From NCBI RefSeq assembly GCF_013410215.1, contig NZ_JACCFQ010000001.1:2604001-2668000 (forward strand): a stretch of 64,000 bases of DNA, given 5' to 3'. Positions 31,655-60,410 of the stretch are shown piece by piece (the stretch's first letter is position 1; each line of letters begins with the position of its first letter). This DNA is from Nesterenkonia sandarakina (lineage in GTDB: Bacteria; Actinomycetota; Actinomycetes; Actinomycetales; Micrococcaceae). The notes below the pieces were generated by a model. It was not told the origin of the DNA. It ran no database searches and worked only from the letters and a program-made list of their open reading frames with translations. The translations under genes and the position numbers were made by a program.

Positions 31655-33259
31655 TCAGCGCAGGTACTTCTCGAACCCCTTGGGTAGGTTCAGGTCCTCG
31701 GGCTTGAGATCCTTCGAGCCCGCGCCGAAGCTAGAGCCGTCCATCCGCTTGGCGGCACCCTGGGTGCGCTTGAGCTCGGCCTCGCGGGCCTCTTGGGCCG
31801 CCTTGGCCGGGTTTCCGGACTTCTTCTTGGGCTTGGGCGCAGGCTTGCGCTTCTTCGACGCCCCTCCGCCGGCGCCCATGCCGGGCATCCCACCCATTCC
31901 CGGCATCCCGCCGCCGCCGGGCATCTGAGGCATTCCCCCGCCCCCAGCCATCTTCTTCATCATCTTCTGCGCCTGGGTGAAGCGCTCCAGAAGCTGGTTG
32001 ACCTCAGAGACATGCACGCCGGAACCCTTGGCGATGCGCGCCCGGCGAGAGCCGTTGATCACCTTGGGCACATTGCGCTCATAGGGGGTCATCGAATAGA
32101 TGATCGCCTCCACCCGGCCGATCGAGGACTCGTCGAACTGCTCGAGCTGCTGGCGCATCCCCTGGGCGCCGGGCATCATGCCCAGCAGCTTCTTCATCGA
32201 GCCCATCTTCTTGAGCTGCTGCATCTGGCCCAGGAAGTCGTCGAGGGTGAAGTCCTCCTGGTCGGCGAACTTCTTCGCCATCTTCTCGGCCTCGCCGCGA
32301 TCCCAGTTGGCCTCGGCCTGCTCGACCAGGGAGAGGATGTCTCCCATGTCCAGGATCCGGCGCGCCATCCGGTCCGGGTGGAAGACCTCGAAGTCCTTGA
32401 GTCCTTCACCGGTGGAGGCGTACATGACCGGCTTGCCGGTGACCGAGGCGACGGAGAGGGCTGCACCGCCGCGGGCGTCACCGTCGAGCTTGGTCAGCAC
32501 CACGCCGGTGAAGTCGACGCCCTCGTTGAAGGCCTGGGCGGTGGTGACCGCGTCCTGGCCGATCATCGCGTCGATCACGAAGAGCGTCTCGTGGGCGCCG
32601 ACCGCAGCCTTGATGTCTGCGGCCTGACGCATCAGTTCGGCGTCGACGCCCAGCCGGCCCGCGGTGTCGATGATGATCACGTCGTGCAGCTTGTTGCGCG
32701 CCTCGGCGAGCCCGTCGGTGGCCACCTGGACCGGGTCTCCGGTGGCGGCCTCGAACTCCGATGAGACCCCTGGGTGCGGGGCGTAGACCGGGACACCGGC
32801 GCGCTTGCCGCCGACCTGCAGCTGCGTGACCGCATTCGGTCGCTGCAGGTCACAGGCGATCAGCATCGGGGTGTGGCCCTGATTCTTCAGGTGATGCGCC
32901 AGCTTCCCGGCCAGCGTGGTCTTGCCCGCGCCCTGCAGGCCGGCGAGCATGATCACGGTCGGCGGGTTTTTCGCGAAGGCCAGCTCGCGGGTCTGCCCGC
33001 CGAGGATCCCGACAAGCTCCTCATTGACGATCTTCACGACCTGCTGACCCGGGTTCAGCGCCTGGGCGACCTCGGAGCCGAGGGCGCGCGCCTTGACCTT
33101 GGCGATGAACTCGCGGACCACCGGCACCGCGACGTCGGCGTCGAGCAGCGCCCGGCGGATCTCCCGAGCGGTGCCGTCGATGTCGGCCTCGGAGAGCCTG
33201 CCCTTGCCGCGGAGGTTCTTGAAGGTCGCGCTCAGGCGATCGGAGAGGGAGTTGAACAC
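31655..33259 (-). CDS. ffh: Signal recognition particle protein Ffh
   Basis: The SRP54 GTPase, 534 residues. G1 is GLQGAGKTT (about 104-112), followed by DTAGR and TKLDGDARGG. The methionine-rich M domain ends in a Gly/Met/Pro tail (PGGGGMPGMGGMPGMG) and a lysine-rich stretch, as in other actinobacteria. Its receptor ftsY is 12 kb away in this window. Confidence 0.97.
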   Translation of the reverse strand: MFNSLSDRLSATFKNLRGKGRLSEADIDGTAREIRRALLDADVAVPVVREFIAKVKARALGSEVAQALNPGQQVVKIVNEELVGILGGQTRELAFAKNPPTVIMLAGLQGAGKTTLAGKLAHHLKNQGHTPMLIACDLQRPNAVTQLQVGGKRAGVPVYAPHPGVSSEFEAATGDPVQVATDGLAEARNKLHDVIIIDTAGRLGVDAELMRQAADIKAAVGAHETLFVIDAMIGQDAVTTAQAFNEGVDFTGVVLTKLDGDARGGAALSVASVTGKPVMYASTGEGLKDFEVFHPDRMARRILDMGDILSLVEQAEANWDRGEAEKMAKKFADQEDFTLDDFLGQMQQLKKMGSMKKLLGMMPGAQGMRQQLEQFDESSIGRVEAIIYSMTPYERNVPKVINGSRRARIAKGSGVHVSEVNQLLERFTQAQKMMKKMAGGGGMPQMPGGGGMPGMGGMPGMGAGGGASKKRKPAPKPKKKSGNPAKAAQEAREAELKRTQGAAKRMDGSSFGAGSKDLKPEDLNLPKGFEKYLR

Positions 33260-33356: not shown

Positions 33357-36305
33357 GTGCGATGGACAGACCTTCCCCCCAGTGACACCGCCTCCCAGAC
33401 CGCAGAACGTCCGGAGCGGGTCCCGGCCACCGACGCGGCGATCCTCGAGGCCGCCAGGAAAGCCCACGTCCAGGCCCTGGGCGCGGTGGAAGAGGCACAT
33501 CGCGCGGCGGCGCGCTCCTGGTCCGCGCCGACACAGGACTCGATCGCCGGCAGCCTGCACACCCGGCACGCCGGCGCGCACTGCGAGCGCGCCGAGGCCC
33601 TGGCCGAGTCCGCACAGGCCCTGACGGGGTCCCCTCGGGCCCTGAAGGGGTCCCCCGCGCTCCCTGGCGCCCCGGCGAGCGCCGCGCCGGATCACACCAG
33701 CCCGACACCGGACCACGCCGGCCATGCCCCCGCCGATATGCCGACCCGGCAGTGGGCCCAGGCGCTGGATGCCGCCACGAAGCTGCCAGACCCGGAGGCG
33801 GGCATCTCCAGGCCCGCGCTGACCCTGCGCGTTGGTCTGGTCGCTGGAGCTCGGCTGCACGCCGGATTCTTCGGCCTGGCGGAGCTGCGAGAGATCACCG
33901 CCGAGGACTGGGAGACCGAGCTGGAGCAGATCGACCTGCTGCTGATCGGTTCCGAGACGGAGGAATCGGCGGAGTTCCTGCTCGAGACCCTGATCCCCGC
34001 GGCCCGGGCTCGCGGCCTGAGCGTCGTCCTGATGGTCACCTCCGGCCCCGCAGTCGGCCCCAGCCTGAGCATCGCAGAGCGCTGCTCGTACATCTTCGCC
34101 ACAGACCACGAAGCCGCGGAGGTGCTGCGAAGCCGCTGCTCCGACGCGATCCCGGTGGAGGTGATCCCGCATCCGGTGAGTCCGTTGCTGCACTCCCCGG
34201 TGGGGACTCGTCCCGCGCGCAGCTCGCTGATCGCACTGCTGGGCACCGAACAGCGGCGGCCCGCCGCACATCTGGAGGAGCCTGAGTTCATCCCGCCGCT
34301 CTTCGACGGGGCCCTGGGCTCCGGACGGCCGACGGCGCTGCTTCCACCGCACCTCACCCCGAGCTTCACCCGCGGTCCGGCTCCGGACCCACGACCGAAC
34401 CACTGGGCGATCCCCCGGGACTATGCCCCCTGGACGCTCACCCGTGCGGAGGCTGCCACGCTCGAGTCCCCGGAGACCGCGGCCAGACTGCAGCGCGCCC
34501 TCGACGTCGGGCTGGCGGTGAACGCAGTGATGGACTCGCAGGCGGTCTTCGATCCCCAGATCCTGCAGCTCCAGGCCAGCGGGACCATGGTGCTCTCCAC
34601 CTATAACCAGGGCGTGAACTCCTATTATCCGCAGGTCCATATCGCGAACTCGGCGGAGGACGTCGCCAAGACCCTGGAGACGATGACCTTGGAGGAGCTG
34701 CGCCGGGTCCAGGCGGACGGGATCCGGAAGATCTTCACGGACCATCACGGTGCCGAGGTGCTGAGCCGGATCGTCCAGGCTGCCGGAATGGAGGCCGAGG
34801 TGTGCCAGGAACGCATCCTGGTGGTCGCCGATGAGCTCACCGAGCAGCTGCGCGCGGACGTCGCCTCCCAGACTCACCCAGCCAGCACGGTCACCACCTG
34901 GAGCCAGCTGAGCGCCCAGGGCAGCGAGGGCACCGAGCTTCTCCACGCAGGCGTAGACATCCTGGTTCCGCTCAGCGCGGCCCGGCGCTACAGCCCGGAG
35001 TACCTCGCCGATCATGTCGCCGCCTTCCGGTACCAGTCGGCGGCGGTGACCACGAAGCTCGACGGCGACGCCGCCTCCACGGACGACGCCGCCCATCAGC
35101 GCCGCCGGGGTGTCACCGATCTGGGACTCTCCGCCTGGTGGCGGCCAGAACTTTCCACCGCCCTGTCCCCGGAGCGACTGCTGGAATCCCTGGAGTCGTC
35201 CCCAAGCTCAGCAGCTTTGCCGCTGCCGGTCTACGCCATCGATCATCTGGGGCACCGCCGTGCCGGTGCCCGGCGTGAGATCATCCGCGAGCGGGGAACC
35301 GAGCTGGCGCAGGCTCGAGAGGAGTTCCGCGCCACCGCCGAGACGCTGGGACTCGAGCTCGCCGTCATCGTCCCGATCTATAACAACGGGGACCATCTCA
35401 GGCATAAGGCGTTCGCCTCGCTGCGCCGATCCGGGATGTTCGAGAAGATGCATGTCCTGTTGATCAACGACGGCTCCACCGACGCCTCCACCGTGGACAC
35501 CATCGAGGAGCTCGCCGCGACGTGGCCAAACGTCTCGGCGTTCCATCATGGACTGGGCGGGTCAGGCTCAGCCTCCCGTCCGCGCAACACCGGGCTGGCG
35601 CTGAGCTTCACTGAGTTCCTCACCTACCTGGATCCCGATGATGAGGAGCTCGAGGACGGCTACTGGGAGCTGCTGGAGCGGCTGCGCGGGGCTGAAGAGG
35701 CTGATTACGCCCTGGGGACCATGGCGGTGTGGACCCGCAAGTATGGGGTCCACGACTACCATCAGTGGTTCCAGCCCGGCGTCGAGCACCGCGACGGTCT
35801 GCACTGGCCCACCCAGGACGCCCTGCAGATACTGAACTTCCGGCCAGCCTCCATCGAGGCGCTGGTGGCGCGCACGGCCTGGCTGCAGGGCCTCGGGCTG
35901 GTGCAGCCCGAGGGCGCGGTGGGACAGGACAGCTACTTCTTCCAGCAGATGTTCTTCCACACCCGGGCGTATGTCCCGGTCTACCGCCCGGTCTACACCT
36001 ACTACGGGGCGGTGAAGACCTCGATCGTCAACGTGATCTCACCGAACTACTTCCGCAAGTACCTGATCCTGGAGCAGGATCGTGCGGCCTGGCTGCGCGA
36101 GGTCGGGCTGTTCGAGGTCTACCTCGAGCAGCGCTTCGAGTCGTTCTTCGTCTCCTGGTATCTGCAGAAGTACCGTCGTGTGCTGCCTCACGACCGCGAC
36201 GAGGCGGCCGGTGTGCTCCGGGAGCTCATCGCCGCCTACGGAGAGGTCCGCTGGAGAGATCCTCGTGGACTGGACTTCTTCCACAGCGCCGAGGGGCGAC
36301 CATGA
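33357..36305 (+). CDS. Giant fused glycosyltransferase: CgeB-like domain plus GT2 domain
   Basis: A 982-residue cytosolic protein starting at GTG 33357. Residues about 150-440 resemble CgeB-type (GT-B) transferases: YIFATDHEAAEVLRSR near 245, VIPHPVSPLLHSP near 266, ILQLQASGTMVLSTYNQG near 400. A middle segment (about 480-600) contains DILVPLSAARRYSPEYLADHV. A GT2 fold begins near 668 (AVIVPIYNNGDHLRHKAF), with NDGSTD and the metal-binding YLDPDDE near 757. It is paralogous to the gene at 36772 and probably transfers two sugars in one cell-wall polymer repeat. Donor and acceptor are unknown. No membrane helices or signal peptide are visible. Confidence 0.85.
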   Translation: MRWTDLPPSDTASQTAERPERVPATDAAILEAARKAHVQALGAVEEAHRAAARSWSAPTQDSIAGSLHTRHAGAHCERAEALAESAQALTGSPRALKGSPALPGAPASAAPDHTSPTPDHAGHAPADMPTRQWAQALDAATKLPDPEAGISRPALTLRVGLVAGARLHAGFFGLAELREITAEDWETELEQIDLLLIGSETEESAEFLLETLIPAARARGLSVVLMVTSGPAVGPSLSIAERCSYIFATDHEAAEVLRSRCSDAIPVEVIPHPVSPLLHSPVGTRPARSSLIALLGTEQRRPAAHLEEPEFIPPLFDGALGSGRPTALLPPHLTPSFTRGPAPDPRPNHWAIPRDYAPWTLTRAEAATLESPETAARLQRALDVGLAVNAVMDSQAVFDPQILQLQASGTMVLSTYNQGVNSYYPQVHIANSAEDVAKTLETMTLEELRRVQADGIRKIFTDHHGAEVLSRIVQAAGMEAEVCQERILVVADELTEQLRADVASQTHPASTVTTWSQLSAQGSEGTELLHAGVDILVPLSAARRYSPEYLADHVAAFRYQSAAVTTKLDGDAASTDDAAHQRRRGVTDLGLSAWWRPELSTALSPERLLESLESSPSSAALPLPVYAIDHLGHRRAGARREIIRERGTELAQAREEFRATAETLGLELAVIVPIYNNGDHLRHKAFASLRRSGMFEKMHVLLINDGSTDASTVDTIEELAATWPNVSAFHHGLGGSGSASRPRNTGLALSFTEFLTYLDPDDEELEDGYWELLERLRGAEEADYALGTMAVWTRKYGVHDYHQWFQPGVEHRDGLHWPTQDALQILNFRPASIEALVARTAWLQGLGLVQPEGAVGQDSYFFQQMFFHTRAYVPVYRPVYTYYGAVKTSIVNVISPNYFRKYLILEQDRAAWLREVGLFEVYLEQRFESFFVSWYLQKYRRVLPHDRDEAAGVLRELIAAYGEVRWRDPRGLDFFHSAEGRP

Positions 36306-36406
36306 TCACCCAGACGAGCAGCGCCGGTTCCTGAGTCGGAACCCAGGCACAAGCAGAGCGCCCGCGAACCGGCCGGGCACCATTGAAGTGAAGGACGTTG
36401 AAGACG

Positions 36407-36775
36407 ATGACCGAGACCGAGAAGACCACCATCGACCCAGCGGCGCAGTCCGACCTCAGCGAGGACACCCGCGAGGTCCTCGTCGAGCTGCTCACCCAGC
36501 ACCAGGCGCTGCTGACCGAGCTGCGCTGGGCCTATGGGCAGCTGGAACGCCTCCAGGAGGTAGATATCGCCGCCCTGAAGCAGCGCGTCTCAGAACTCGA
36601 ACAGCGCCGTTCCCGCGGGAAGACCGCACTGGCGGCCTCGGCCACCGCCTCGTCGAAGATGCGCAAGCGCGTGGAGTTCACTCTGCAGCACCCCGATAAG
36701 GCCGCGCGGGCGGCCGGACGGAAACTCTCCCGGCCCTTTGAACGGGCCGCCCGACGAGCAGGGCTCAGCCGGTGA
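36407..36775 (+). CDS. Small coiled-coil protein between the two fused glycosyltransferases
   Basis: A 122-residue protein with no recognised family. Residues about 20-68 form a heptad-rich coiled coil (EVLVELLTQHQALLTELRWAYGQLERL). The last ~50 are strongly basic helices ending KLSRPFERAARRAGLSR. There are no membrane helices. The ATG at 36407 was chosen over a TTG at 36398 because AAGGAC lies too close to the TTG. Its stop overlaps the next gene's GTG (GTGA), so it is co-translated with a glycosyltransferase and may serve as its adapter or oligomerisation partner. Confidence 0.75.
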   Translation: MTETEKTTIDPAAQSDLSEDTREVLVELLTQHQALLTELRWAYGQLERLQEVDIAALKQRVSELEQRRSRGKTALAASATASSKMRKRVEFTLQHPDKAARAAGRKLSRPFERAARRAGLSR

Positions 36776-39606
36776 CACCCCGGCCGGACCACATCGGTCC
36801 GCACCCGCGCCAGGTCCGCCTGGAGGCGGGCGCCGCTGCGATCACGCGGCTGCTCATGGCACCGGATCCGGCGCGCGCCCTGCGCCAGATGGGCACCCTT
36901 GAGCTCTTGGGCCCAGAACCGGGCAGCCCCTTCGCCCGAGGCGCGAGAGACGCCTCGGACCTGCTCGAGCGCCTCGAGCCGGCCATGCGGGCACTCCCCG
37001 CCACAGAGTCCGGGATCTCCCGACCCGCACTCCCGCTGCGCGTGGCCGTCGTCGACGACGAGGCGACCCGCTGGGTGCTGCACGGTGCAGCCCAGGTCCT
37101 CGGGTTCAGCGGCGCCGAGCTCAGCTCCGACCCGGCGCTGCTTGAAGGGATCGACCTTCTCGTGCTGACCCCGGTGAGCGTAGGAGCCCGCTTCAGCTTC
37201 CCGGCAGAGGGAGTCAGCGAGGCCACCGAAGATGAACAGGCGGTCCGGGTCCAGCGGCTGCTTGGCGAGGTGCTCCCGCACTGCGCGATACGTGGCACAC
37301 CGGTGGTCTTCTGGGACCGCACGACGCGCAGCACCACCGCCGCCGGCCGAGAGATCGCCGACGCCTGTGAGCAGGTCTTCGCCGTGTCCCAGGAGGCCGT
37401 CCGCCGCTACGCGGACTCGCGGGGCGAGGCGTCCACGGTCACCCGGGTGCCGATGGTGGTCAACCCGCTGCAGAACTCCCCATTGGGCTCGCGCAACACC
37501 TGCTCCGAGGTGATCGCGATGGCCGGGGCCCAGGTCCCCCAGAGCCCCCGCGATCTGCGATTGATGGCGGAATGGATCCTCGATGGCATCAGCGCCCAGG
37601 GGCTCCCCGCGGCGCTGCTGCGCCGGGACGGGAGGGACACCTTCCCGGCAGGGGTCGGAGCCGGGTTCGCCGCCCGGCACTGGCCGCTGCTCGTGGAGAA
37701 CCCAGGAGCCGAGACCCTGGCCGCCCTGGACCGGGTGACCGACATCGGCATTGTCCTCAACGAGGTGATCAGCTCCCAGACGCTCTACGATCGGCGCATC
37801 ATCGAGCTGCAGGCCGCTGGTTCCCTGGTGATCAGCGGCTACAACCAGGGCGTGAACTCCTACCTGCCGCATGTCCAGATCCCACAGTCCGCCGAGGACG
37901 TCTCGGCCGCACTGGGATCACTGAGCGTCGCGGAGCTCAGACGCGTCCAGGGCGACGGGATCCGCACAGCTTTCATCAACCACCACGTCTGCGACGTGCT
38001 GGAGACCATGTGCGCCGCCGTCGGCCTGCCAGCCGCGCAGCCCACCGAACGGGTGCTTGCCGTGATTGATCAGCCCGCGCCGGCCCGGGGAGCCGAACAC
38101 CTGGGAGGAACCGCACGCACCACGGGCAACCACGAGCTGGATCCGGTGCTGCGCGGCGAGCTGGCCTCCCAGACCCACGGAGCGGTCCCGCTGACCACCT
38201 GGGATCAGCTGCCCGCCCGCCATGGCAGCTACGACATCCTGCTCCCGGTCTCCACCCGTCGGCACTACTCGCCCACCTATGTGGCGGACATGGTGGCGGC
38301 GTTCCGCTACCAGGGCGCCGGCGTGATCTCCAAGCTCGATGGCAGCGCGGAACAGACCGGGCATGCCGCCCAGCGCCACGCATCGGCCACCCATGCGGGT
38401 CTGCCCGCGGACCTCACGGCGTGGTGGCGTCCTGCTGCCGAAGCCACAGCCAGCCCCGCTGCGCTGCGCAGACACGCCGCCGAGGAGCGGGTCTTCTTCA
38501 TCGACCACCTCGGACATCACGCCCGCGGGGACCGGGCGCGCCGAGACCGCCCGGCGCTGCTGGTCGATGAGGATCTGCAGGCGACCTCACGGCGTGCCGC
38601 CGAGACCGCGCGCCGACTCGACCTGGCCCTGACCGTGATCGTTCCGGTCTACAACAACGGCGATCACCTGCGGCATAAGGCCTTCGCGTCGCTGCGCCGT
38701 TCATCCATCTTCGAGAACATGCACGTGCTTCTGGTCAATGACGGGTCCACCGATCCGGTCACGGTGGACACCGTGGAGGAGCTCGCGCACGAGTATCCGA
38801 ACGTGACCGCCTACCACCATGGAGGTGGCGGCTCCGGCTCGGCGTCGCGACCACGGAACACCGGACTGGAGCTCACGCACACACCGTTCGTGACCTACCT
38901 GGACCCGGACAACGAGGCGATCCAGGACGGCTTCGCGCAGCTGCTCGAGGACATCTCGGAGCACCAGGATGTGGACTTCGTGCTGGGTGATATGACGCAT
39001 TGGGCCAGCCGGTTCGGCCGTCTGCGCTACAGCGAGCTGCTGCGCGAGACGCTGGCTGAGCACCAGGACCCTTCAGGCACCATCACCGTTCCGCGGGACG
39101 CTCTGGAGAAGCTGCACTTCCGTCCGATGGGGATCCAGACGGTTGTTGCTCGCACCGAGTGGCTCAAGGCCTGCGGACTGCAGCAGCCGGTGGGCGCGGT
39201 GGGGCAGGACAGCTACTTCTTCCAGCAGATGCTCTACTACGCCCGCAGGGTCCGGGTCCACGACATCGGGGTGCACACCTACTACTCGGCGGTCAGCGAC
39301 TCCACCGTTAACACCATCAATCCGGGCTACTTCGAGAAGTACCGTCCCTTGGATCTCGCGCGGTCACAGTGGCTGCGGGAGGTGGGCAAGCTGGAGGCCT
39401 ACCGGGAACTCCGACTGGAGCCCTTCTTCGTGAGCTGGATGCTGCCGAAGCTGCGCCGACTCGAGGCCGAGCCCGCGGACTGGCGCTTCGCCGCCGAGAC
39501 CCTGGCGGATCTGCTGGGCTACTACGGGGACCACCAGTGGACCACCCCGGAGGCTGTCGAGTTCTGGGAGCACCTGGCGCAGGCTCGGGGGCGCTCCCCC
39601 CGCTGA
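36772..39606 (+). CDS. Second giant fused glycosyltransferase (CgeB-like plus GT2)
   Basis: 944 residues from a GTG overlapping the coiled-coil gene. It repeats the architecture of the gene at 33357: VVFWDRTTRS and CEQVFAVSQEAVRRYADS in the CgeB-like half, IIELQAAGSLVISGYNQGVNSYLPHV, DILLPVSTRRHYSPTYVADMVAAF, then GT2 from about residue 618 (TVIVPVYNNGDHLRHKAFASLRR). NDGSTD and YLDPDNE (about 712) follow; here the second Asp of the DDE form is Asn. Both fusions share long identical stretches, so they arose by duplication and probably act on successive positions of the same glycan. Confidence 0.85.
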   Translation: MTPRPDHIGPHPRQVRLEAGAAAITRLLMAPDPARALRQMGTLELLGPEPGSPFARGARDASDLLERLEPAMRALPATESGISRPALPLRVAVVDDEATRWVLHGAAQVLGFSGAELSSDPALLEGIDLLVLTPVSVGARFSFPAEGVSEATEDEQAVRVQRLLGEVLPHCAIRGTPVVFWDRTTRSTTAAGREIADACEQVFAVSQEAVRRYADSRGEASTVTRVPMVVNPLQNSPLGSRNTCSEVIAMAGAQVPQSPRDLRLMAEWILDGISAQGLPAALLRRDGRDTFPAGVGAGFAARHWPLLVENPGAETLAALDRVTDIGIVLNEVISSQTLYDRRIIELQAAGSLVISGYNQGVNSYLPHVQIPQSAEDVSAALGSLSVAELRRVQGDGIRTAFINHHVCDVLETMCAAVGLPAAQPTERVLAVIDQPAPARGAEHLGGTARTTGNHELDPVLRGELASQTHGAVPLTTWDQLPARHGSYDILLPVSTRRHYSPTYVADMVAAFRYQGAGVISKLDGSAEQTGHAAQRHASATHAGLPADLTAWWRPAAEATASPAALRRHAAEERVFFIDHLGHHARGDRARRDRPALLVDEDLQATSRRAAETARRLDLALTVIVPVYNNGDHLRHKAFASLRRSSIFENMHVLLVNDGSTDPVTVDTVEELAHEYPNVTAYHHGGGGSGSASRPRNTGLELTHTPFVTYLDPDNEAIQDGFAQLLEDISEHQDVDFVLGDMTHWASRFGRLRYSELLRETLAEHQDPSGTITVPRDALEKLHFRPMGIQTVVARTEWLKACGLQQPVGAVGQDSYFFQQMLYYARRVRVHDIGVHTYYSAVSDSTVNTINPGYFEKYRPLDLARSQWLREVGKLEAYRELRLEPFFVSWMLPKLRRLEAEPADWRFAAETLADLLGYYGDHQWTTPEAVEFWEHLAQARGRSPR

Positions 39607-39661
39607 ACCCGCCATCCTGTGAGATGGTCCTTCCCCACAGCGGAGCACCCGGCGGGACGCG

Positions 39662-41860
39662 CTAGGGTCCCTGCAGCGCCGGCTCGATCCGCTGGGCCAG
39701 CTCCGCGGTCACCGAGCGGACGAAGTTCTGCGAGACGTGGCTGTTGTCGTTATAGGTGATCGCTCCGCCGAGCACCGCGTAGCAGGTGCCCTGCTCCTCC
39801 GAGCAGAGCAGATCCTCGGTCGGGACGAAATGATAGTTCTCAGCCTCGGCGAACACGGTCTCTGACGCTGTGAGCCAGCGCTCGCTGACCCGGGTGTCCT
39901 GGAGGTCGTCGTTGCAGGCGGCGGGGTCCTCCTCGTGCAGAGCCACGCACTCGGGCAGGGTCTCAGTCTCATTGCGCTCGAGATTGAGCCGGGGAATCTC
40001 GCCCATCACCACGACCTGCTTCTCGGCTTCGAGCCAGAACTGGATCGGGGTCAGGATGCTGCGCCCGGCGTCGCTGAGCTCCACCTCGGACTCCGGAAGG
40101 TCCACCTTGACGTCGGGGCCCTCGAAGCCTCCGGTCATCTGGCTGCCCGCGATGACCACCGTCTCGACCTCGGGGTCCTCCGCGAGCCGATCCAGGATCT
40201 CGAGGTTGGCCTCCCCACAGGGGTCCTCCGCCTGGACGTAGGTGGCGGCCCGGGGAGTGCAGCTGGAGCGGGTCAGCACCAGCAGGCGCTTGCCGGCGTC
40301 CTGGGCGATCTCATCCAGGGCGGGCAGCCACATCGTGGCGTGGGAGTCACCGAACACCGCGATGGTCCCCTCCGCCTGGGCCGCCTCCGCGCCGAGCCAG
40401 CACTCCGGAACGCCCTCGTCCTCTGCCTCGGCCTGGCAGCCCGGGTACGCCGGCTCCTGGGGCTGGGCGGCGACCTCGGCCGCGGAGGGCGTCAGGCCCT
40501 GGGTCCCTTCGAACGGGTCGCCGCACTGGTCTGGATTCGCCAAGGCCCGGTAGCCGTAGCAGGGGTGGTCCTCGGAGAGCTCAGAGGCGGTGAACTCCGC
40601 CTCCACGATCTGAACCGAGTAGTGGGCCACGCCGACCACCAGGGCCATCCCGGCCGCAGCAGCGACCAGGGTGCGCCAGGTCGGCAGCAGGACCCTCGCG
40701 CGACGCAGCGGGGCCTCGTAGAACCTGGTGCTCAGCGCGGAGAGCAGCACCACGCCGAAGATCAGCGCGACCTTGACCTCCCAGCGCTCGGTTCCCTCCA
40801 GGAGGTAGGGCGCAAAGATCAGCACCGGCCAGTGCCAGAGATAGATCGCATAGGACCAGTCACCGATCGCCGTGGCTGGTCGCAGCGAGAGCCACCAGTG
40901 CACCCCGACCCACGGGCTCTTGCCACCGCAGGCCATCAGCAGCACCGTCCCCAGAGTCGGCAGCAGGGCCGTCCAGCCCGGGAACGGGGTGGTCTCGCTG
41001 AAGCACCAGGCCGCGGCAAGGATCATCCCCAGTCCGGCCCAGCCGAGCAGGTTCCCCCACCGGCCGATGAACTGGCTGGACCCGAGGATCAGCGCCAGCA
41101 GGGCTCCGAGCGCGAACTCCCAGATCCGGGTCGGGGTGATGAAGTAGGCCTCGGCGGAGGACTCGGCGGTGTAGTAGATCGAGAACGCCAGGGATCCGGC
41201 ACCGAGCAGACCGATCACCCAGAGGAAGATCGCCCTGGTGTGGTTGCGCGGCACCGCAGCACCCTCGGCACGGGTCCGGACGCGCCGGCTCAGCACTGCG
41301 ATGCCCAGGACGACCGCGAGGAGCACCGGCCACAACAGGTAGAACTGTTCCTCCACAGAGAGCGACCAGAAGTGCTGCACCGCGGTGGCCCGCTCATCAG
41401 CCTTGGAGTAGTCGATCGCGTCCTCGGCCAGGACCCAGTTCTGCACGTAGAGCGCCGAGGCCATGATCTGCCGGCTGGTGCTCTGCCACAGCGTGCTGGG
41501 CAGGATCAGCACCGACGCGACAGCGGTCGCGGCCAGCACCAACAGGCTCAGCGGCAGCAGGCGCCGGATTCTGCGCGCCCAGAACTGACCCAGCCGGATC
41601 CGCCCGGTCCGGGACGCCTCCTTGAACAGGTGCCCCGTGATCAGGTAGCCCGAGATCACGAAGAAGACATCGACCCCGACGTACCCGCCTCGCAGCTGCT
41701 CCGGCCAGAAGTGGTAGACCACCACCAGCAGCACCGCCAAGGCTCGCATGCCCTGGATCTCCGGCTGAAAACGTTCGCTGCGTGAGCCTCGTCCGGCGGG
41801 CTGAGTCACGGTTGTCGAAGCCACGGCCGGGGCAGGTGCAGATGTCACGCGTGAGGACAT
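39662..41860 (-). CDS. Acyltransferase-3/SGNH O-acetyltransferase
   Basis: A 732-residue OafA-type membrane protein. The N-terminal ~400 residues are the acyltransferase-3 domain with about ten helices, starting with FQPEIQGMRALAVLLVVVYHFWP and VFFVISGYLITGHLF. A periplasmic SGNH domain follows: nucleophile motif FGDSHATMW near 503 and the Asp/His-bearing YNDNSHVSQNF near 703. Such proteins O-acetylate wall polymers or peptidoglycan. It is closely paralogous to the gene at 43369. The ATG at 41860 was chosen because the conserved region starts soon after. Confidence 0.9.
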   Translation of the reverse strand: MSSRVTSAPAPAVASTTVTQPAGRGSRSERFQPEIQGMRALAVLLVVVYHFWPEQLRGGYVGVDVFFVISGYLITGHLFKEASRTGRIRLGQFWARRIRRLLPLSLLVLAATAVASVLILPSTLWQSTSRQIMASALYVQNWVLAEDAIDYSKADERATAVQHFWSLSVEEQFYLLWPVLLAVVLGIAVLSRRVRTRAEGAAVPRNHTRAIFLWVIGLLGAGSLAFSIYYTAESSAEAYFITPTRIWEFALGALLALILGSSQFIGRWGNLLGWAGLGMILAAAWCFSETTPFPGWTALLPTLGTVLLMACGGKSPWVGVHWWLSLRPATAIGDWSYAIYLWHWPVLIFAPYLLEGTERWEVKVALIFGVVLLSALSTRFYEAPLRRARVLLPTWRTLVAAAAGMALVVGVAHYSVQIVEAEFTASELSEDHPCYGYRALANPDQCGDPFEGTQGLTPSAAEVAAQPQEPAYPGCQAEAEDEGVPECWLGAEAAQAEGTIAVFGDSHATMWLPALDEIAQDAGKRLLVLTRSSCTPRAATYVQAEDPCGEANLEILDRLAEDPEVETVVIAGSQMTGGFEGPDVKVDLPESEVELSDAGRSILTPIQFWLEAEKQVVVMGEIPRLNLERNETETLPECVALHEEDPAACNDDLQDTRVSERWLTASETVFAEAENYHFVPTEDLLCSEEQGTCYAVLGGAITYNDNSHVSQNFVRSVTAELAQRIEPALQGP

Positions 41861-42080
41861 GGGCGGTTCGTTTCTTCCTTCCACGCTTGACGGCAACCGA
41901 TCTAAGATATCGCCGTTTTCGGAGAAACCCCGACCCCACACCGATCTGCAGGATCCCAGGCTCGCGGAGGGTAGTGACCGCTTGAACCGGCTGGGATAGA
42001 CTCGCCTGCTGTCAGCCTCATCGTGCCCTCAGCCCCTCCCGCTCTGGGCATCATCGTGTCGCCTACGAAAGTGGACCGCC

Positions 42081-43316
42081 TTGCCCAGGAACTTCTCCAG
42101 CGTCGGTGTCATCGGACTCGGTTACATCGGACTGCCCACCGCCGCGATCCTTGCAGACCACGGCGTCACCACGATCGGCGTGGACGTCTCTGAGCGCAAC
42201 GTTGCGGCGGTGAACAAGGGCGAGGTCCCCTTCGTGGAACCCGGCCTGCGCGAGGTCCTGGAACGTGCGGTGAGCAGCGGCACGCTGACCGCGACGACGC
42301 AGACGCCCACGGCCGAGGCCTACATCGTCGCAGTGCCCACCCCGTTCACCGAGGCACACGCCGCGGACCTCTCCTATATCGAGGCTGCCGCGGATGGGAT
42401 CGCAGGGAAGCTCACCGGCGGAGAACTGATCATCTTGGAATCCACCTCCCCTCCGGGAGCCACAGAGCATCTCGCGCAGCGGATCCTCGCGGCGCGCCCA
42501 GACCTCGGCGCCGAGGACATCCTGGTCGCGCACTGTCCCGAGCGCGTGCTGCCGGGCAGGATCATGGAGGAGATGATCACCAACGATCGGATCATCGGCG
42601 GGCTGACTCCGGCCGCCGCAGAGGCCGCCCGTGACCTGTACTCAGCCTTCGCAAAAGGTGAGTTCCTGCTCACGGATGCGCGCACCGCCGAGATGGCGAA
42701 GCTCACCGAGAACAGCTTCCGCGACGTCAACATCGCCTTCGCCAATGAGCTCTCGGTCATCAGCCACCGACTGGGCATCGATGTCTGGGAGCTCATCGAG
42801 CTGGCCAACCACCATCCCCGGGTCAACATCCTCCAGCCCGGCCCGGGAGTGGGCGGCCACTGCATCGCCGTGGACCCGTGGTTCATCGTCGACGCGGCCC
42901 CCGAGGAGTCCCGGCTGATCCGCACCGCTCGCGAGACCAACGACGCGAAGCCGGAGTGGGTTCTGGGCCGGATCGAGCAGGCCCTGGAGTCTGCCGGGCC
43001 CGCCCCCACCGTGGCGCTGCTGGGGCTCGCCTTCAAAGCCGACATCGATGACCTGCGCGAGTCTCCCGCGCTGCAGATCGCTCAGACGCTGGCCGAGCGC
43101 GCCCCACAGGCGCAGCTGCTGGCCGTGGAGCCCCATATCCAGACCCTGCCCGCGGCGCTCAGCGGGTTCAGCAACGTGGCGCTGACTGACCTCGATGAGG
43201 CTCTGCAGCGCGCCGACGTGGTGGTGCTGCTGGTGGATCACCAGGTGTTCAAGGACCTGCCGGCGGCGCGACTCGGTGAGGCCGTGCTGATCGACACGCG
43301 CGGGATCTGGCGCTGA
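42081..43316 (+). CDS. wecC: UDP-N-acetyl-D-mannosamine dehydrogenase
   Basis: Oxidises UDP-ManNAc to UDP-ManNAcA in two NAD-dependent steps. The 411-residue protein begins at a TTG. It shows the Rossmann motif VGVIGLGYIGLPTAAILADHG, the middle segment ENSFRDVNIAFANELS, the catalytic cysteine in GVGGHCIAVDPWF (about residue 260) and FKADIDDLRESPAL. The WecC assignment over UDP-Glc dehydrogenase rests on ENSFRDVNIA and is supported by wecB in the same window. ManNAcA is a known component of micrococcal teichuronic acid. Confidence 0.88.
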   Translation: MPRNFSSVGVIGLGYIGLPTAAILADHGVTTIGVDVSERNVAAVNKGEVPFVEPGLREVLERAVSSGTLTATTQTPTAEAYIVAVPTPFTEAHAADLSYIEAAADGIAGKLTGGELIILESTSPPGATEHLAQRILAARPDLGAEDILVAHCPERVLPGRIMEEMITNDRIIGGLTPAAAEAARDLYSAFAKGEFLLTDARTAEMAKLTENSFRDVNIAFANELSVISHRLGIDVWELIELANHHPRVNILQPGPGVGGHCIAVDPWFIVDAAPEESRLIRTARETNDAKPEWVLGRIEQALESAGPAPTVALLGLAFKADIDDLRESPALQIAQTLAERAPQAQLLAVEPHIQTLPAALSGFSNVALTDLDEALQRADVVVLLVDHQVFKDLPAARLGEAVLIDTRGIWR

Positions 43317-43368
43317 CCCGCTGCAGGGATGAGCTCTGCAGGCTGATGCGCCCGCCCGCGCCGGTCTC

Positions 43369-45540
43369 CTAGGAGTTCGCCGCCAGGGCCGGTTCCATCC
43401 GCGAGGTCAGCTCCGGGATGGTGGAGCGCACGAAGGTCCGCGCGAGGTGGCTGTTGTCCGAGTAGGTGATGGCCCCACCGAGCACCGCATAGCAGGTGTC
43501 CTCTCGGCACACCAGGTCCTCCGTGGGCACGAAGTGGTAGTTCTCCTCCTCGGCGAAGACCTCCGCAGACCGGGTCAGCCAGCGATCCCCCACCTGGGTG
43601 TCTTCGAGCCGCTCATTGCACGCAGAGAGATCCCCTTCGTTCAGGGCCACGCACTCCGGGAGGGTCTCCTCGGACTGCTCGTCGTTGCTCATGCGCGGGG
43701 CCTCCCCAAAGACCACCACTTCCTTCTCCGCCTCAAGCAGCCGCACGATCGGCTCATACATCGCCAGCGCCGAGTCGTCGAGGTCGTAACGTTCCGCGTC
43801 GAGGCCGAGATCACTGCTGGGTCCGCCGAACTCGCCGTGCATCTGACTCGCCGCGATCACCACGGTGTCCACGTCCTCATCCTCAGTGAGCTCATCGATG
43901 GCCTCCACGTTGCTCCGGAGGCACTCACTGGAGTCGCCCCCAACCTCCCCGCCGCGGGGTGTGCAGGCGGAGCGGGTCAGCACGAGAAGCTGCTTGTTCT
44001 GCTCCTGAGCGATCTCATCGAGGGCCGGCAGCCACATCGTGGCGTGAGAGTCACCGAAGACCGCGACCGTGCCCTGGGCCTCGGACTCCTCAGCCCCCAG
44101 CCAACACTCCTGGACTCCCGGTGTGTCCTCATCGGCCTGGCAGCCCGGGAAGGCTTCTTCCTGGTACTGCTGCGTGACCACTGCCGGGGAGGGCCAGAGC
44201 CCCAGATCCCCCTCGAACGGGGAACCGCACTCCTCAGGGTTCGCCAGGGCCCTGTAGCCGTAACAGGGGTGATCCTCGCTCAGCGCCGAGTCCGCGGAGT
44301 TGGTCTGTATCGCGGAGACCGCCACGCTTCCGGAGACGATGACCAACACCATGCCAGCACCGGCGGCCGCCATGGTCCGCCAGGTGGGGAGCAGGATCTT
44401 GGCCCGGCGGATCGGGGTCTCGAAGAAGCGGGTGCTCAGCGCGGAGAGCCCGATGATGCCCAGGATCAGCAGGACCTTCACGTACCAGAACCTGGCCGAC
44501 TCGCTGATGTAGGGAGAGAAGACCACCACCGGCCAGTGCCAGAGGTAGATCGCATAGGACCAGTCGCCGATGGCAGTGGCGGGCCGCAGCGAGAGCCACC
44601 AATAGATGCCGGTCCCGGGTTCACGCCCGCCGCAGGCAAGCACCAGCACCGTCCCAAGAGTCGGCAGCAGTGCAGTCCAGCCGGGGAACGGGGTGGCGTC
44701 GGTGTAGAAGACTGCAGCCCCGAGGATCATGAGGAACCCGATCCAGCCCAGGACGTTTCCGCCTCTGCCGGTGAACTGGCGGGACCCGAGCACCAGCGCC
44801 GCGACCGCGCCGAGGGTGAACTCCCAGATCCTGGTGGGTGTGACGAAGTAGGCCTGCGCCGGTGCGGCCGCCGTGTAGTAGATGGAGAAGGCCAGCGAGC
44901 CGGCGCCCAGCAGGCCCACCACCCAGAGGAATGCGGCGCGGATCTGCCGGTGTCCCAGCCCCGGGGCCCCGGAGCGTCGCTGCCGGAGGCCCAGGAACAG
45001 CAGCGTCAGCGCGAGCAGGACTGGCCAGAGGATGTAGAACTGCTCCTCCACCGAGAGTGTCCAGAAGTGCTGGACCGCCGTGGCCCGCTCATCGGCCTTG
45101 GAGTACTCCACCGCGTCGGCGGCGAGGATCCAGTTCTGCACGTACAGGGTCGAGGCGATGATCTGACGCAGGGTCGCCTGCCAGGCGGTGCTGGGCAGGA
45201 TGAACACCGCCGAGATCGCAGTCAGCAGCAGCACCAGCAGACTCAGGGGCAGCAGGCGCCGGATCCGGCGTCCCCAGAACTGACCCAGACGCACTCCCCC
45301 GGTCTTCACGGCCTCCTTGAACAGGTGCGCCGTGATCAGGTACCCAGAGATCACGAAGAAGACATCGACACCCACGTAGCCGCCGGTGAGCCGTTCGGGC
45401 CAGAAGTGGTAGAGCAGCACCACGAGCACCGCGAGGGCCCGCAGCCCCTGGATCTCGGGCTGAAAGCGCGTCGGGGCCCCGGCTGCAGCTGGCAGCGGGC
45501 GGCCTGAGGCCGTCGCCTCTGCCGAGTAGGTTGAAGTCAT
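43369..45540 (-). CDS. Acyltransferase-3/SGNH O-acetyltransferase, paralog
   Basis: A 723-residue relative of the gene at 39662 with the same order: AT3 domain (FQPEIQGLRALAVLVVLLYHFWPERL), then SGNH with FGDSHATMW near 496 and YSDNSHLARTF near 693. The ATG at 45540 follows CAGGTGAG. The pair flank wecC on the opposite strand. Differences concentrate in the periplasmic SGNH domain, so they may modify different sites on the same polymer. Confidence 0.9.
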   Translation of the reverse strand: MTSTYSAEATASGRPLPAAAGAPTRFQPEIQGLRALAVLVVLLYHFWPERLTGGYVGVDVFFVISGYLITAHLFKEAVKTGGVRLGQFWGRRIRRLLPLSLLVLLLTAISAVFILPSTAWQATLRQIIASTLYVQNWILAADAVEYSKADERATAVQHFWTLSVEEQFYILWPVLLALTLLFLGLRQRRSGAPGLGHRQIRAAFLWVVGLLGAGSLAFSIYYTAAAPAQAYFVTPTRIWEFTLGAVAALVLGSRQFTGRGGNVLGWIGFLMILGAAVFYTDATPFPGWTALLPTLGTVLVLACGGREPGTGIYWWLSLRPATAIGDWSYAIYLWHWPVVVFSPYISESARFWYVKVLLILGIIGLSALSTRFFETPIRRAKILLPTWRTMAAAGAGMVLVIVSGSVAVSAIQTNSADSALSEDHPCYGYRALANPEECGSPFEGDLGLWPSPAVVTQQYQEEAFPGCQADEDTPGVQECWLGAEESEAQGTVAVFGDSHATMWLPALDEIAQEQNKQLLVLTRSACTPRGGEVGGDSSECLRSNVEAIDELTEDEDVDTVVIAASQMHGEFGGPSSDLGLDAERYDLDDSALAMYEPIVRLLEAEKEVVVFGEAPRMSNDEQSEETLPECVALNEGDLSACNERLEDTQVGDRWLTRSAEVFAEEENYHFVPTEDLVCREDTCYAVLGGAITYSDNSHLARTFVRSTIPELTSRMEPALAANS

Positions 45541-45737: not shown

Positions 45738-46937
45738 GTGGATTTCGACGTACTCATTCTCTTCATCGCACTCTCCGTGATCTTGCTCGGGACCCTGGGA
45801 TTCTTCCTGGTCCAGGGCGGGAAGCTGCTGCCCAAGGACAAGCGGGAGCAGTACCTGACGCAGCGGGACCCCGATGATCTCCCCTCCGGCGGCGTGGATA
45901 CTCTCGAAGCTCCGGCAGAAGACCGCCCGGGCACCGAGGAGCCCACCCTTGGTGACGGCGTGGACCTCCTCGAGGAGCCCACGGTCGAAGAGCCCAGCGT
46001 GGAGACCCCGGAGCCGGTGGCGGGACGCCTCGCCCGGCTGCGTGCCCGGCTGGTGAAGTCCAACAACATCTTCGGCAGATCACTGCTGGCCCTGCTCTCC
46101 CGGGACGAGATCGACGAGGACGTCTGGGACGAGATCGAAGAGGTCCTGCTGATGGCTGACCTCGGCACAGAGCCGACCATGGAGCTGGTGGACCGGCTCC
46201 GGGAACGGGTCAAGGTCGAGGGCACCAAGGACCCCGCCGTGGTGAAGTCGATGCTCACCGAGGAACTGACTGCCCTGGTGGATCCCACCCTGGATCGCCG
46301 ACTCACGGTCAGCGCCGACGGACGCCCGGCCGTGCTCATGGTGGTCGGGGTCAACGGGGTCGGCAAGACCACCACCGTCGGCAAGCTGGCCCGGATGCTG
46401 GTCGCCGAGGACAAGGACGTCCTGCTCGGCGCTGCCGACACCTTCCGCGCCGCCGCGGCCGAGCAGCTGAGCACCTGGGGGCACCGCGTGGGAGTGCCCA
46501 CGGTGAAGTCCGACGTCGAGGGCGCAGACCCCGCCTCGGTGGCCTACGAGGCCGTGGATCGGGGTGTCGAGCTCGAGGTCGACGTCGTCATGATCGACAC
46601 TGCCGGTCGACTCCAGAACAAGTCCAACCTGATGGACGAGCTGGGCAAGGTCAAACGTGTGGTGGAGAAGAAGTCCGCGGTCGATGAGGTGCTGCTCGTG
46701 CTCGACGCCACCACCGGCCAGAACGGTCTGAACCAGGCGAAGGTGTTCTCCGAGGTCGTCAACGTCACCGGCATCGTGCTGACCAAGCTGGACGGCACCG
46801 CCCGCGGCGGCATCGTGGTCGCGATCCAGCGTCAGCTGGGCGTCCCGGTGAAGCTCATCGGCCTCGGTGAGGGACCAGATGATCTGGCGCCCTTCGACGC
46901 GGACGAGTTCGTCGCCGCGCTCCTCGAGGACCGCTGA
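45738..46937 (+). CDS. ftsY: Signal recognition particle receptor FtsY
   Basis: A 399-residue SRP receptor. An N-terminal membrane helix (ILFIALSVILLGTLGFFLVQGG, given here in part) and an acidic linker precede the NG domain. GTPase motifs are GVNGVGKTT (about 204), DTAGR and TKLDGTARGG. The start is GTG 45738. In many actinobacteria ftsY follows smc directly; here smc is 3.5 kb further on, in the opposite direction. Confidence 0.96.
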   Translation: MDFDVLILFIALSVILLGTLGFFLVQGGKLLPKDKREQYLTQRDPDDLPSGGVDTLEAPAEDRPGTEEPTLGDGVDLLEEPTVEEPSVETPEPVAGRLARLRARLVKSNNIFGRSLLALLSRDEIDEDVWDEIEEVLLMADLGTEPTMELVDRLRERVKVEGTKDPAVVKSMLTEELTALVDPTLDRRLTVSADGRPAVLMVVGVNGVGKTTTVGKLARMLVAEDKDVLLGAADTFRAAAAEQLSTWGHRVGVPTVKSDVEGADPASVAYEAVDRGVELEVDVVMIDTAGRLQNKSNLMDELGKVKRVVEKKSAVDEVLLVLDATTGQNGLNQAKVFSEVVNVTGIVLTKLDGTARGGIVVAIQRQLGVPVKLIGLGEGPDDLAPFDADEFVAALLEDR

Positions 46938-54099: not shown

Positions 54100-54109
54100 G
54101 GGGGTGGAC

Positions 54110-55282
54110 TCACACTCCGCCGGTCGCGGCGGGGCTCTCCTGGGGCTGGAAGTCCTCGAGCCGATCCCCGAGACCGAACATCGACGCGATCGCCGCGACG
54201 GTGCGCTCGGCCGCGTGGCCATCACCGTAGGGGTTCACCGCATTGGCCATGGCCGCGTAGGCGTCCGCGTCGTCGAAGAGCGTCGCGACCTCTTCGACCA
54301 CCCGTTCTTCGGCGGTGCCGATCAGGCGCACGGTCCCGGCGTCGACGGCTTCTGGACGCTCGGTGTTCTCCCGCATCACCAGCACCGGCTTGCCCAGCGA
54401 CGGGGCCTCCTCCTGCACGCCGCCGGAGTCGGTGAGCACTACGGTGGCCAGGTTCATCAGCCGGGTGAACTCCCCGTAGGGCAGCGGCTCCGTGACGATC
54501 ACGTTCTCGTGACCGGCAAGTGCGGGAAGGATCGCTTCGCGGACCACCGGGTTGCGGTGCGCCGGGAGCACGATCAGCTTCTCCGGATAGCGATCTGCGA
54601 GTCGGGCCAGGGCCCGGCCCACGCCCTCCATCGCGGAGCCCTGGTTCTCCCGGCGGTGGGTGGTCACCAGCAGCACCTCGCGGCCGGAGGCGGCGGCGTC
54701 CTCGAGCTGCGGATCCGCGAAGGGCACGTGTTTGCTGGCCACCTCGAGCAGCGCATCGATCACCGTGTTGCCGGTGACCACGATGTCCTCGGCCGGCAGC
54801 GCCTCGCGCAGCAGGTTCGCCCGGGACTGCGCAGTGGGAGCCAGGTGCAGCGCCGTGATCTGACTCGTCATCTTCCGGTTCGCCTCTTCCGGGAACGGCG
54901 AGTAGAGGTTGAAGGAGCGCAGCCCGGCCTCGGCGTGGATCACCGGGATCCCGGAATAGAACGCCGCCATCGCCCCGGCGGTGGTGGTCGTGGTGTCACC
55001 CTGGACGACGACGGCGTCAGGCTTGTGCTCCGCGAAGAGCGCGTCCAGGCCGGTGACCGTGCGGGTGAGCACGCCGTTGAGCGTCTGCCGCGGCTGAATG
55101 ATGTTCAAGTCGTGGTCCGGCACGATCCCGAAGAGCTCATTGACCTGGTCCAGCATCTCGCGGTGCTGCCCGGTCACGGTGACCTCACACTCGAAGAGAT
55201 CGCTGGCCTGCAGCGCCTTGACGATCGGGGCCATCTTGATGGCTTCGGGACGAGTCCCGTAGATGGGCATGATTCGCTTCAT
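54110..55282 (-). CDS. wecB: UDP-N-acetylglucosamine 2-epimerase
   Basis: Converts UDP-GlcNAc to UDP-ManNAc, the substrate for WecC. The 390-residue protein has PIYGTRPEAIKMAPIVKAL, QGDTTTTTAG, HAEAGLRS, HRRENQGS and the C-terminal TDSGGVQEEAPSLGKPVLVMRENTERPE. The ATG at 55282 matches the usual family start; an in-frame ATG at 55303 adds seven residues. It is probably co-transcribed with smc, which is an odd pairing. Confidence 0.93.
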   Translation of the reverse strand: MKRIMPIYGTRPEAIKMAPIVKALQASDLFECEVTVTGQHREMLDQVNELFGIVPDHDLNIIQPRQTLNGVLTRTVTGLDALFAEHKPDAVVVQGDTTTTTAGAMAAFYSGIPVIHAEAGLRSFNLYSPFPEEANRKMTSQITALHLAPTAQSRANLLREALPAEDIVVTGNTVIDALLEVASKHVPFADPQLEDAAASGREVLLVTTHRRENQGSAMEGVGRALARLADRYPEKLIVLPAHRNPVVREAILPALAGHENVIVTEPLPYGEFTRLMNLATVVLTDSGGVQEEAPSLGKPVLVMRENTERPEAVDAGTVRLIGTAEERVVEEVATLFDDADAYAAMANAVNPYGDGHAAERTVAAIASMFGLGDRLEDFQPQESPAATGGV

Positions 55283-55452
55283 CGCCTCTGACAATCCCTT
55301 CATACGCCCGATATCTGCCACCAAGCCTAGCTCCCCGCTCCGACATGGGGCCGGACTGACACCCAGGTACCGTGGTCCTGAGCGATTGTGCCGGTAAACT
55401 TCAGCACCGTGTCAGCATCGGGACCGAGATCGATGCAGGAAAGGGATTGATT

Positions 55453-58290: not shown

Positions 58291-58297
58291 CTCCAGT

Positions 58298-60391: not shown

Positions 60392-60410
60392 CGGCAGGAG
60401 GGGCGGTCCA

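Follow-up and report, generated by a model that had tools for sequence, protein, structure and literature searches.

The locus described here lies in a 64,000-nucleotide stretch of the Nesterenkonia sandarakina genome (C1:2604001-2668000 of a 3.02 Mb genome; hereafter the window) and centres on two fused glycosyltransferases, termed GtA and GtB. Together, the pair and its locus are a variation on glycan-assembly types that are already known. Closest in fold are TarS and TarP of Staphylococcus aureus and RmlT of Listeria, which share the GT-A fold modelled for GtA, including its C-terminal helical region, at 17-18% identity. Unlike in these enzymes, the GT-A domain here is fused behind a GT-B and a predicted decayed GT-A domain, in a genome without a match to PF04464, the polymerase that would make a polyol-phosphate acceptor. 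A second point of comparison is provided by the CgeB-like two-domain enzymes of the Micrococcaceae (L147, L149 and L151 among our numbered loci), in which a GT-B precedes a GT-A bearing the string DDDD. Their GT-B is homologous to that of the pair over 317 columns and their GT-A matches the middle segment of the fused proteins; these enzymes retain DDDD, whereas the corresponding GT-A of the fused proteins is shorter, without the cluster, and is followed by an additional, TarS-like GT-A.

More distant parallels come from whole assembly pathways. In the ATP-binding cassette (ABC) transporter-dependent assembly of O antigen by WbdA and WbdD, the available part of the published account describes WbdD as comprising a catalytic part, a coiled-coil ruler, an amphipathic helix and a polymerase recruitment site (PMC11231755). 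A multi-module transferase, a basic C-terminal tail and an ABC exporter, the last as proposed for the present family, are common to both systems on this account (PMC11231755), and several Bacillota loci and one Fusobacteriota locus of the present family also resemble WbdD in having a methyltransferase with a long helical part, a likeness of layout only. Unlike WbdA/WbdD, the hosts here are mostly Gram-positive, genes for an N-acetylmannosaminuronic acid (ManNAcA) precursor are present, and the Nesterenkonia helical protein is short and has no tail motif. Teichuronic acids are a poorly characterized class of wall polymer (PMC13274773, in the part available). The teichuronic acid synthetase of Micrococcus luteus is reported, in the accessible portion of the paper, to be membrane associated, to contain two different transferases together and to make a ManNAcA polymer, and the purified enzyme is described there without a gene; its subunits are of 54 and 52.5 kDa, compared with ~100 kDa here (PMC3005890). 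Two cooperating transferases, a ManNAcA polymer and membrane association, all as proposed for the present pair, are the features in common. The Streptomyces utr cluster, compared by description, combines a UDP-sugar dehydrogenase and an epimerase with the TarS-like UtrC, as does the present locus; UtrC and the TarM-like UtrF are separate proteins and the polymer is reported on teichoic acid (PMC13274773). Among the open-licence papers listed, none dealt, by title or abstract start, with the architecture GT-B/decayed GT-A/TarS-like GT-A, and the term 'CgeB' was absent from the subset checked for it. The family matters as a source of candidate genes that recur together across phyla: those for the three-part transferase and its helical partner, for a dehydrogenase and an epimerase, and for an exporter. 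The window pair, in turn, is a clear case of transferase-domain decay after duplication, apparently into a scaffold.

Domain architecture of the fused family

GtA and GtB are paralogues with 42% identity across 907 columns; by domain, identity is lowest in the GT-B (35%), intermediate in the middle segment (45%) and highest in the GT-A (59%). By sequence, both carry a C-terminal GT-A domain with intact motifs. PF00535 (GT2) is exceeded in both (42.4 bits in GtA and 51.5 in GtB, gathering cut-off 23.3) and is matched by all 20 members of alignment A2 (E 0.05 or better). In GT2 enzymes DxD binds the metal and a further aspartate acts as the catalytic base; across the family, DPD and G(Q/E)D are each present in 109/109 members, these being the distinct ones among 139 full-length open reading frames (ORFs) at the loci examined. 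An 80-row alignment gave a structure model of GtA residues 130-982 with a predicted local distance difference score (pLDDT) of 91.7 and a predicted template modelling score (pTM) of 0.93, an earlier model from 11 sequences having been poor (63.9 and 0.49). Foldseek and VIA-align matched residues 665-982 of the model to TarS, TarP and RmlT, C-terminal helices included, so the modelled C-terminal fold is TarS/TarP-like. These matches took up the hit lists of the structure search, and the GT-B half was thus hardly probed by structure.

The family itself is broad. Protein searches gave 9 and 10 relatives, with 7998 candidates scored in each, and restriction of the family to Nesterenkonia was ruled out by a DNA-based scan, which recovered full-length relatives in other phyla: Actinomycetota, Bacillota and, at one locus, Fusobacteriota. 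The 78 named loci derive from the best 80 among at least 182 relatives recovered with two peptide patterns. Alignment A3 (80 rows) covers 69 of them, the window pair and nine proteins from the databases; L070, L076, L077, L096, L111, L120, L122, L129 and L146 were omitted as near-duplicate, partial, of doubtful frame or carrying a long extension.

Between the outer domains lies the conserved segment that a sequence-only reading of the window had described as being of unknown role. The segment is present, and the description is now superseded: alignment A6 of the middle matches the GT-A of CgeB-type proteins (hhalign probability 96.6, score 65.2), over a span that includes their DDDD site. A 13-row subset scored 48.7; when the columns of this subset were shuffled, the highest score in 30 trials was 20.3. 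The reference profile was built from seven of nine open frames at L147-L155, L152 and L154 being excluded as they have no DDDD string. At the middle DDDD site, three aspartates occur in 0/109 members. The segment has no match to the family's own TarS-like GT-A (hhalign probability 0.2), and its best hit among solved structures (SarA, E 0.044) is regarded as chance. A new fold was considered and is ruled out by the match to the CgeB-type GT-A(DDDD). We therefore read the middle segment, from its profile match, as a GT-A that has decayed since it was inherited from an enzyme with two domains, CgeB and GT-A. Because of the profile matches and the missing aspartate cluster, the order along the protein is GT-B, decayed GT-A, intact GT-A.

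All genes named by the sequence-only reading lie where it placed them, and each of the six has coding-type composition. Its description of the pair as duplicated fusions of a CgeB-like GT-B with a GT2 domain also holds, the GT-B being clear in a family-level profile comparison and not by Pfam cut-off.

The GT-B domain of the duplicated pair

In the window pair, the CgeB-type model PF13524 reaches 18.5 bits in GtA, under the cut-off of 25, and has no match in GtB; in a paralogue, GtC, it reaches 27.6 bits, above it. Family alignment A5, which includes the pair, matches the GT-B of the seven CgeB/GT-A reference proteins with an hhalign probability of 100 over 317 columns, and one of these seven scores 82.5 bits for PF13524. 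Against solved structures the GT-B profile gave chance matches alone (E 0.78 or worse). The motif NLNSV..S.TMFANR..ELQA.G is common across the family. In GT-B enzymes in general an R/E pair binds the nucleotide sugar; both residues are retained in 90/109 members and a second motif, EDP, in 80/109.

The pair departs from this pattern. GtA has QQ for R/E and SGP for EDP, and its clade (12 tree rows, L084 included) has QQ in nine rows and QD, RD and RE in one each, with EDP in none. GtB retains R/E and has TTR for EDP; among the 10 tree rows of its clade, R/E is retained in eight and EDP again in none. In the GtC rows both motifs are retained in 10/10. The GT-B parts also diverge rapidly: the median ratio of GT-B to GT-A non-identity is 2.73 in GtA (range 2.09-4.41) and 2.00 in GtB (1.62-3.91), compared with medians of 0.95 in GtC, 1.29 in Kocuria, 0.99 in the Arthrobacter group, 1.28 in Brevibacterium, 0.97 in Bacillaceae and 1.39 in Oceanobacillus, after removal of pairs with GT-A identity >97% and with within-group pairs that are non-independent. 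Owing to the motif loss and the fast divergence of the GT-B, GtA is predicted to have one working site, whilst GtB would probably have one and possibly two. The sequence-only reading had taken both folds as working transferases; the sequence evidence instead indicates a single functional fold for GtA and leans the same way for GtB.

GtC (1091 residues, L038:8102-11377) is encoded 0.51 Mb from the pair, beside a gene of the LCP family, a GT-B type transferase identified by Pfam and two further genes labelled transferases by eye. This GtC/LCP layout is repeated, by BLAST labels, at other Nesterenkonia loci. GtA groups with GtC in the tree (support 100) and GtB stands apart, in what was a quick tree with uneven letter composition that placed the long outsider branch L029 inside the Nesterenkonia set. 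The GT-A part alone is matched in 11 Nesterenkonia genomes, in frames of 384-429 residues; that these have only the short form rests on two candidates scored per genome. In 4/4 of the short-form genomes opened, a stand-alone GT-A with the C-terminal part lies at the LCP locus (ORFs of 381-416 residues; Table 1), and is either an ancestral-like form or one that has lost its front half. One Nesterenkonia genome (G138) has four tandem family members with two ATP-grasp-like genes (L055:1250-15417, + strand), and L077 has a similar array.

Precursor supply, export and the polymer served

WecB and WecC both exceed their NCBIfam cut-offs, and the window encodes by sequence both enzymes leading from UDP-GlcNAc to UDP-ManNAcA. 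WecC (at least 64% identity) is found in 15/17 fusion-bearing Nesterenkonia genomes and in 2/11 with the short form only (Fisher p 3.6e-4, with no correction for relatedness). Completeness is 82% and 65% in the two genomes that have the fusion and no such WecC; G304 and G331, with weak or fragment matches and also without WecC, were excluded from the comparison. Outside Nesterenkonia, neighbourhoods of at least 20 kb were tagged according to the top BLAST match (E 1e-5 or better) among 35 hand-chosen reference proteins, where a 'wecC' tag denotes a nucleotide-sugar dehydrogenase nearer WecC than a second dehydrogenase, a distant 'Wzt' tag could be a different ABC ATPase, and 'Bacillota/other' takes in one Fusobacteriota and several metagenome-assembled genomes. 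A dehydrogenase tag is present at 27/28 actinobacterial and 22/23 Bacillota/other loci, a wecB tag at 10/28 and 14/23, and the exporter genes Wzm and Wzt together at 15/28 and 20/23 (35/51 overall); L103 has a Wzm tag and no dehydrogenase, wecB or Wzt tag. With 38 dehydrogenase matches (E 1e-29 or better) in ~57.6 Mb from 15 hand-chosen genomes, 0.015 would be expected per 22 kb under random gene placement and one was observed at 15/15 loci, although glycan genes do cluster. Among 91 neighbour proteins of eight Bacillota-side loci, Pfam identified eight dehydrogenases, nine ABC_tran, nine ABC2_membrane, five epimerases, three LCP and two PF04464 proteins (91 of 119 collected proteins and eight of 10 loci were scanned, one L125 protein being dropped). 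This company in other phyla points to a little-studied route to acidic cell-wall sugars. The link to a ManNAcA-containing polymer made in the sequence-only reading is strengthened by the co-occurrence and the neighbourhoods. Its statement that no exporter is present holds within the gene cluster it described; the genome has Wzm/Wzt-type genes at C1:2677781-2679741, 34 kb downstream of GtB and 9.8 kb past the window. Its suggestion that the fused enzymes build the chain by themselves for want of an exporter finds no support, given these genes and the frequent Wzm/Wzt neighbours of relatives. TupA-like ATP-grasp genes (PF14305) adjoin the fused transferase at L056:303-1601 (-) and L085:6512-8161 (-), which suggests that a uronic acid polymer is decorated with amino acids or peptides.

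With moderate confidence, we favour GtA and GtB as paired one-site glycosyltransferases of an ABC-exported, ManNAcA-containing wall glycan of the teichuronic type. Both would transfer with inversion, as in TarS, and in the cytoplasm would add sugars, one of which is probably beta-ManNAcA, to a lipid-linked chain. The presumed dead GT-B and middle parts may serve as a scaffold for the acceptor, the partner or the small helical protein. Wzm and Wzt would then export the chain, the AT3-SGNH enzymes would acylate it outside, and an LCP enzyme would join it to peptidoglycan; the genome has three LCP genes and two PF00953 matches, of which one is of WecA/TagO type and the second is taken as MraY.

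A number of observations weigh against this interpretation. At least two acidic residues persist at the middle aspartate cluster in 16/109 members. The R/E pair is kept in GtB, whose GT-B may thus still work; the GtB proteins of the ffh loci L023 and L024, just outside the 10-row clade, retain EDP and have Q for E; motif loss is also seen in the scattered members L029, L055, L077, L127, L132 and L144; and the lower end of the GtB ratio range just reaches the highest single value outside the pair, 1.67. Wzm/Wzt tags lie within 10 kb of a family gene in 0/11 Nesterenkonia loci of at least 20 kb, and the exporter link is therefore drawn here from the genome region and from other genera only. Scores of Wzm and Wzt for named export families are under the curated cut-offs. 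A flippase route is possible, since there is one Wzx-type PF13440 match, far off at C1:2164252. The products of wecB and wecC could also be used for a different polymer of the region.

The best-surviving alternative, which we consider unlikely, is that GtA and GtB decorate another wall polymer and do not extend a main chain. Structurally, their GT-A half together with its C-terminal helices comes closest to enzymes that decorate teichoic acids, and the TarS-like UtrC is predicted, in the available part of its description, to attach a teichuronic-type chain onto ribitol phosphate (PMC13274773). However, PF04464 (TagF/TagB-type polyol-phosphate polymerase) has no match in the genome, in a search that was positive in 3/14 control genomes, Bacillus subtilis included, and this speaks indirectly against glycosylation of poly(ribitol phosphate); the frequent dehydrogenase and Wzm/Wzt neighbours in other phyla suggest chain building.

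Quite improbable for the pair is a model in which the GT-B and GT-A of each protein both transfer, a single polypeptide alternating two sugars to polymerise the chain. The two-fold layout is real at family level, and the widespread retention of the GT-B motifs makes such a model plausible for GtC, as for family members from other phyla, with R/E kept in GtB as well; against it, these motifs are gone wholly from GtA and partly from GtB, and the pair's GT-B diverges 2.0-2.7 times as fast as its GT-A (medians). Least probable is that the product of the locus is not wall-bound but a capsule, an exopolysaccharide or the glycan of a glycoprotein: ABC-2 export and AT3 acylation serve capsules and exopolysaccharides too, and heparinase II/III-like proteins stand beside the family in Bacillota-side loci (5/91 neighbour proteins, e.g. 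L123:12643-15114), but GtC adjoins an LCP ligase gene here and, going by BLAST labels, at other Nesterenkonia loci too, and Wzt is nearest to teichoic-acid export TagH models, though under cut-off.

The small gene between GtA and GtB was called a coiled coil in the sequence-only reading; the gene is there, and its heptad periodicity is weak (z 1.4, shuffle p 0.08). It occupies the same position at several Nesterenkonia loci, and the window protein is without a tail motif, [LIVMA][GAM].[LIVMAT][TQI]..[YM]W..[RK], that ends the directly upstream ORF at 31/66 loci and is found in 0/1059 other neighbour genes. As the motif was defined after viewing these proteins, the count indicates specificity and is no blind test. 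By group it occurs at 17/29 Bacillota/other, 14/28 Actinomycetota (several near-identical Brevibacterium) and 0/9 Nesterenkonia loci. Heptad periodicity at shuffle p 0.05 is seen in 18/31 tail-motif ORFs and not in the window protein. A GCSQG-type methyltransferase start was recognized by eye in 11/17 Bacillota/other tail-motif ORFs, and the 3/3 that were scanned (L121, L138 and L135) match methyltransferase models. We tentatively, and with some doubt, envisage a Gram-positive ABC-exported wall-glycan pathway, extending across Actinomycetota and Bacillota and to a single Fusobacteriota locus and bearing no name in the papers searched, in which a GT-B/pseudo-GT-A/TarS-like GT-A polymerase of a ManNAcA polymer would be kept at the membrane by a helical ruler protein with a YW-basic tail. 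In many Bacillota this ruler would be fused to a methyltransferase terminator, and in Actinomycetota the ruler would be free-standing; in Nesterenkonia, duplication of the polymerase would have given two proteins with dead GT-B domains, each making one of two transfers. If the helical partner is indeed a chain-length ruler, it would be a Gram-positive counterpart of O-antigen length control.

Gene layout and neighbouring features

The glycan locus (Table 1) is flanked by ffh (31655-33259) and ftsY (45738-46937), with smc and wecB further on. Among the database candidates scored, a protein from Nesterenkonia jeotgali comes nearest to GtB, at 97% identity.

Table 1. Positions of the genes and domains discussed (window coordinates, unless a locus number is given)
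Feature	Position	Strand	Remarks
GtA, fused glycosyltransferase P0001, 982 residues	33357..36305	+	start backed by N-terminus (V/M)RW(I/T)D, conserved among orthologues
GtA residues 154-483, CgeB-like GT-B domain	33816..34805	+	Q401 and Q404 at family R/E; SGP at EDP
GtA residues 485-660, middle segment, predicted decayed GT-A	34809..35336	+	SAAR at Asp-cluster columns
GtA residues 661-982, predicted intact TarS/TarP-like GT-A and C-terminal helical region	35337..36302	+	
Small predicted helical partner, 125 residues	36398..36775	+	4-base overlap with GtB start
GtB, fused glycosyltransferase P0002, 944 residues	36772..39606	+	
GtB residues 86-424, CgeB-like GT-B	37027..38043	+	R/E retained; TTR at EDP columns
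GtB residues 426-612, predicted decayed GT-A	38047..38607	+	STRR at Asp-cluster columns
GtB residues 613-944, predicted intact GT-A and C-terminal region	38608..39603	+	DPD, GQD
AT3 + SGNH membrane O-acyltransferase, 759 residues	39662..41941	-	
wecC, UDP-ManNAc dehydrogenase, 411 residues	42081..43316	+	NF008286 568.7 bits, cut-off 459
AT3 + SGNH membrane O-acyltransferase, 741 residues	43369..45594	-	
wecB, UDP-GlcNAc 2-epimerase	54110..55324	-	TIGR00236 456.9 bits, cut-off 210.15
GT2 with weak GT-B match, 972 residues	55372..58290	+	adjoins wecB
Third AT3-SGNH acyltransferase, 697 residues	58298..60391	+	
Stand-alone GT-A ORFs at LCP locus	L058:9693-10868; L059:9152-10303; L060:9225-10475; L068:7814-8959		

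The 972-residue GT2 gene beside wecB possibly belongs to the same wider glycan region. The called start of smc overlaps the end of wecB by 116 bases on the same strand (54110-54225), and the true smc start is probably further inside. Window positions 54001-64000 and L039:1-7348 form a stretch of lower GC (60-66% in the window), which contains the 972-residue GT2 gene, an AT3-SGNH gene, a methyltransferase, an 828-residue GT2, a second nucleotide-sugar dehydrogenase, a TupA-type gene, another ATP-grasp gene and another AT3-SGNH gene, and has the appearance of a glycan cluster that is either a second one or the result of a merger. Towards the other end of the window, an ABC2_membrane match (43.2 bits, 10071-10592) lies in an ORF at 9912-10757, with another ORF (9025-9999) immediately upstream, and this region is a further ABC-2 transporter candidate within the window.

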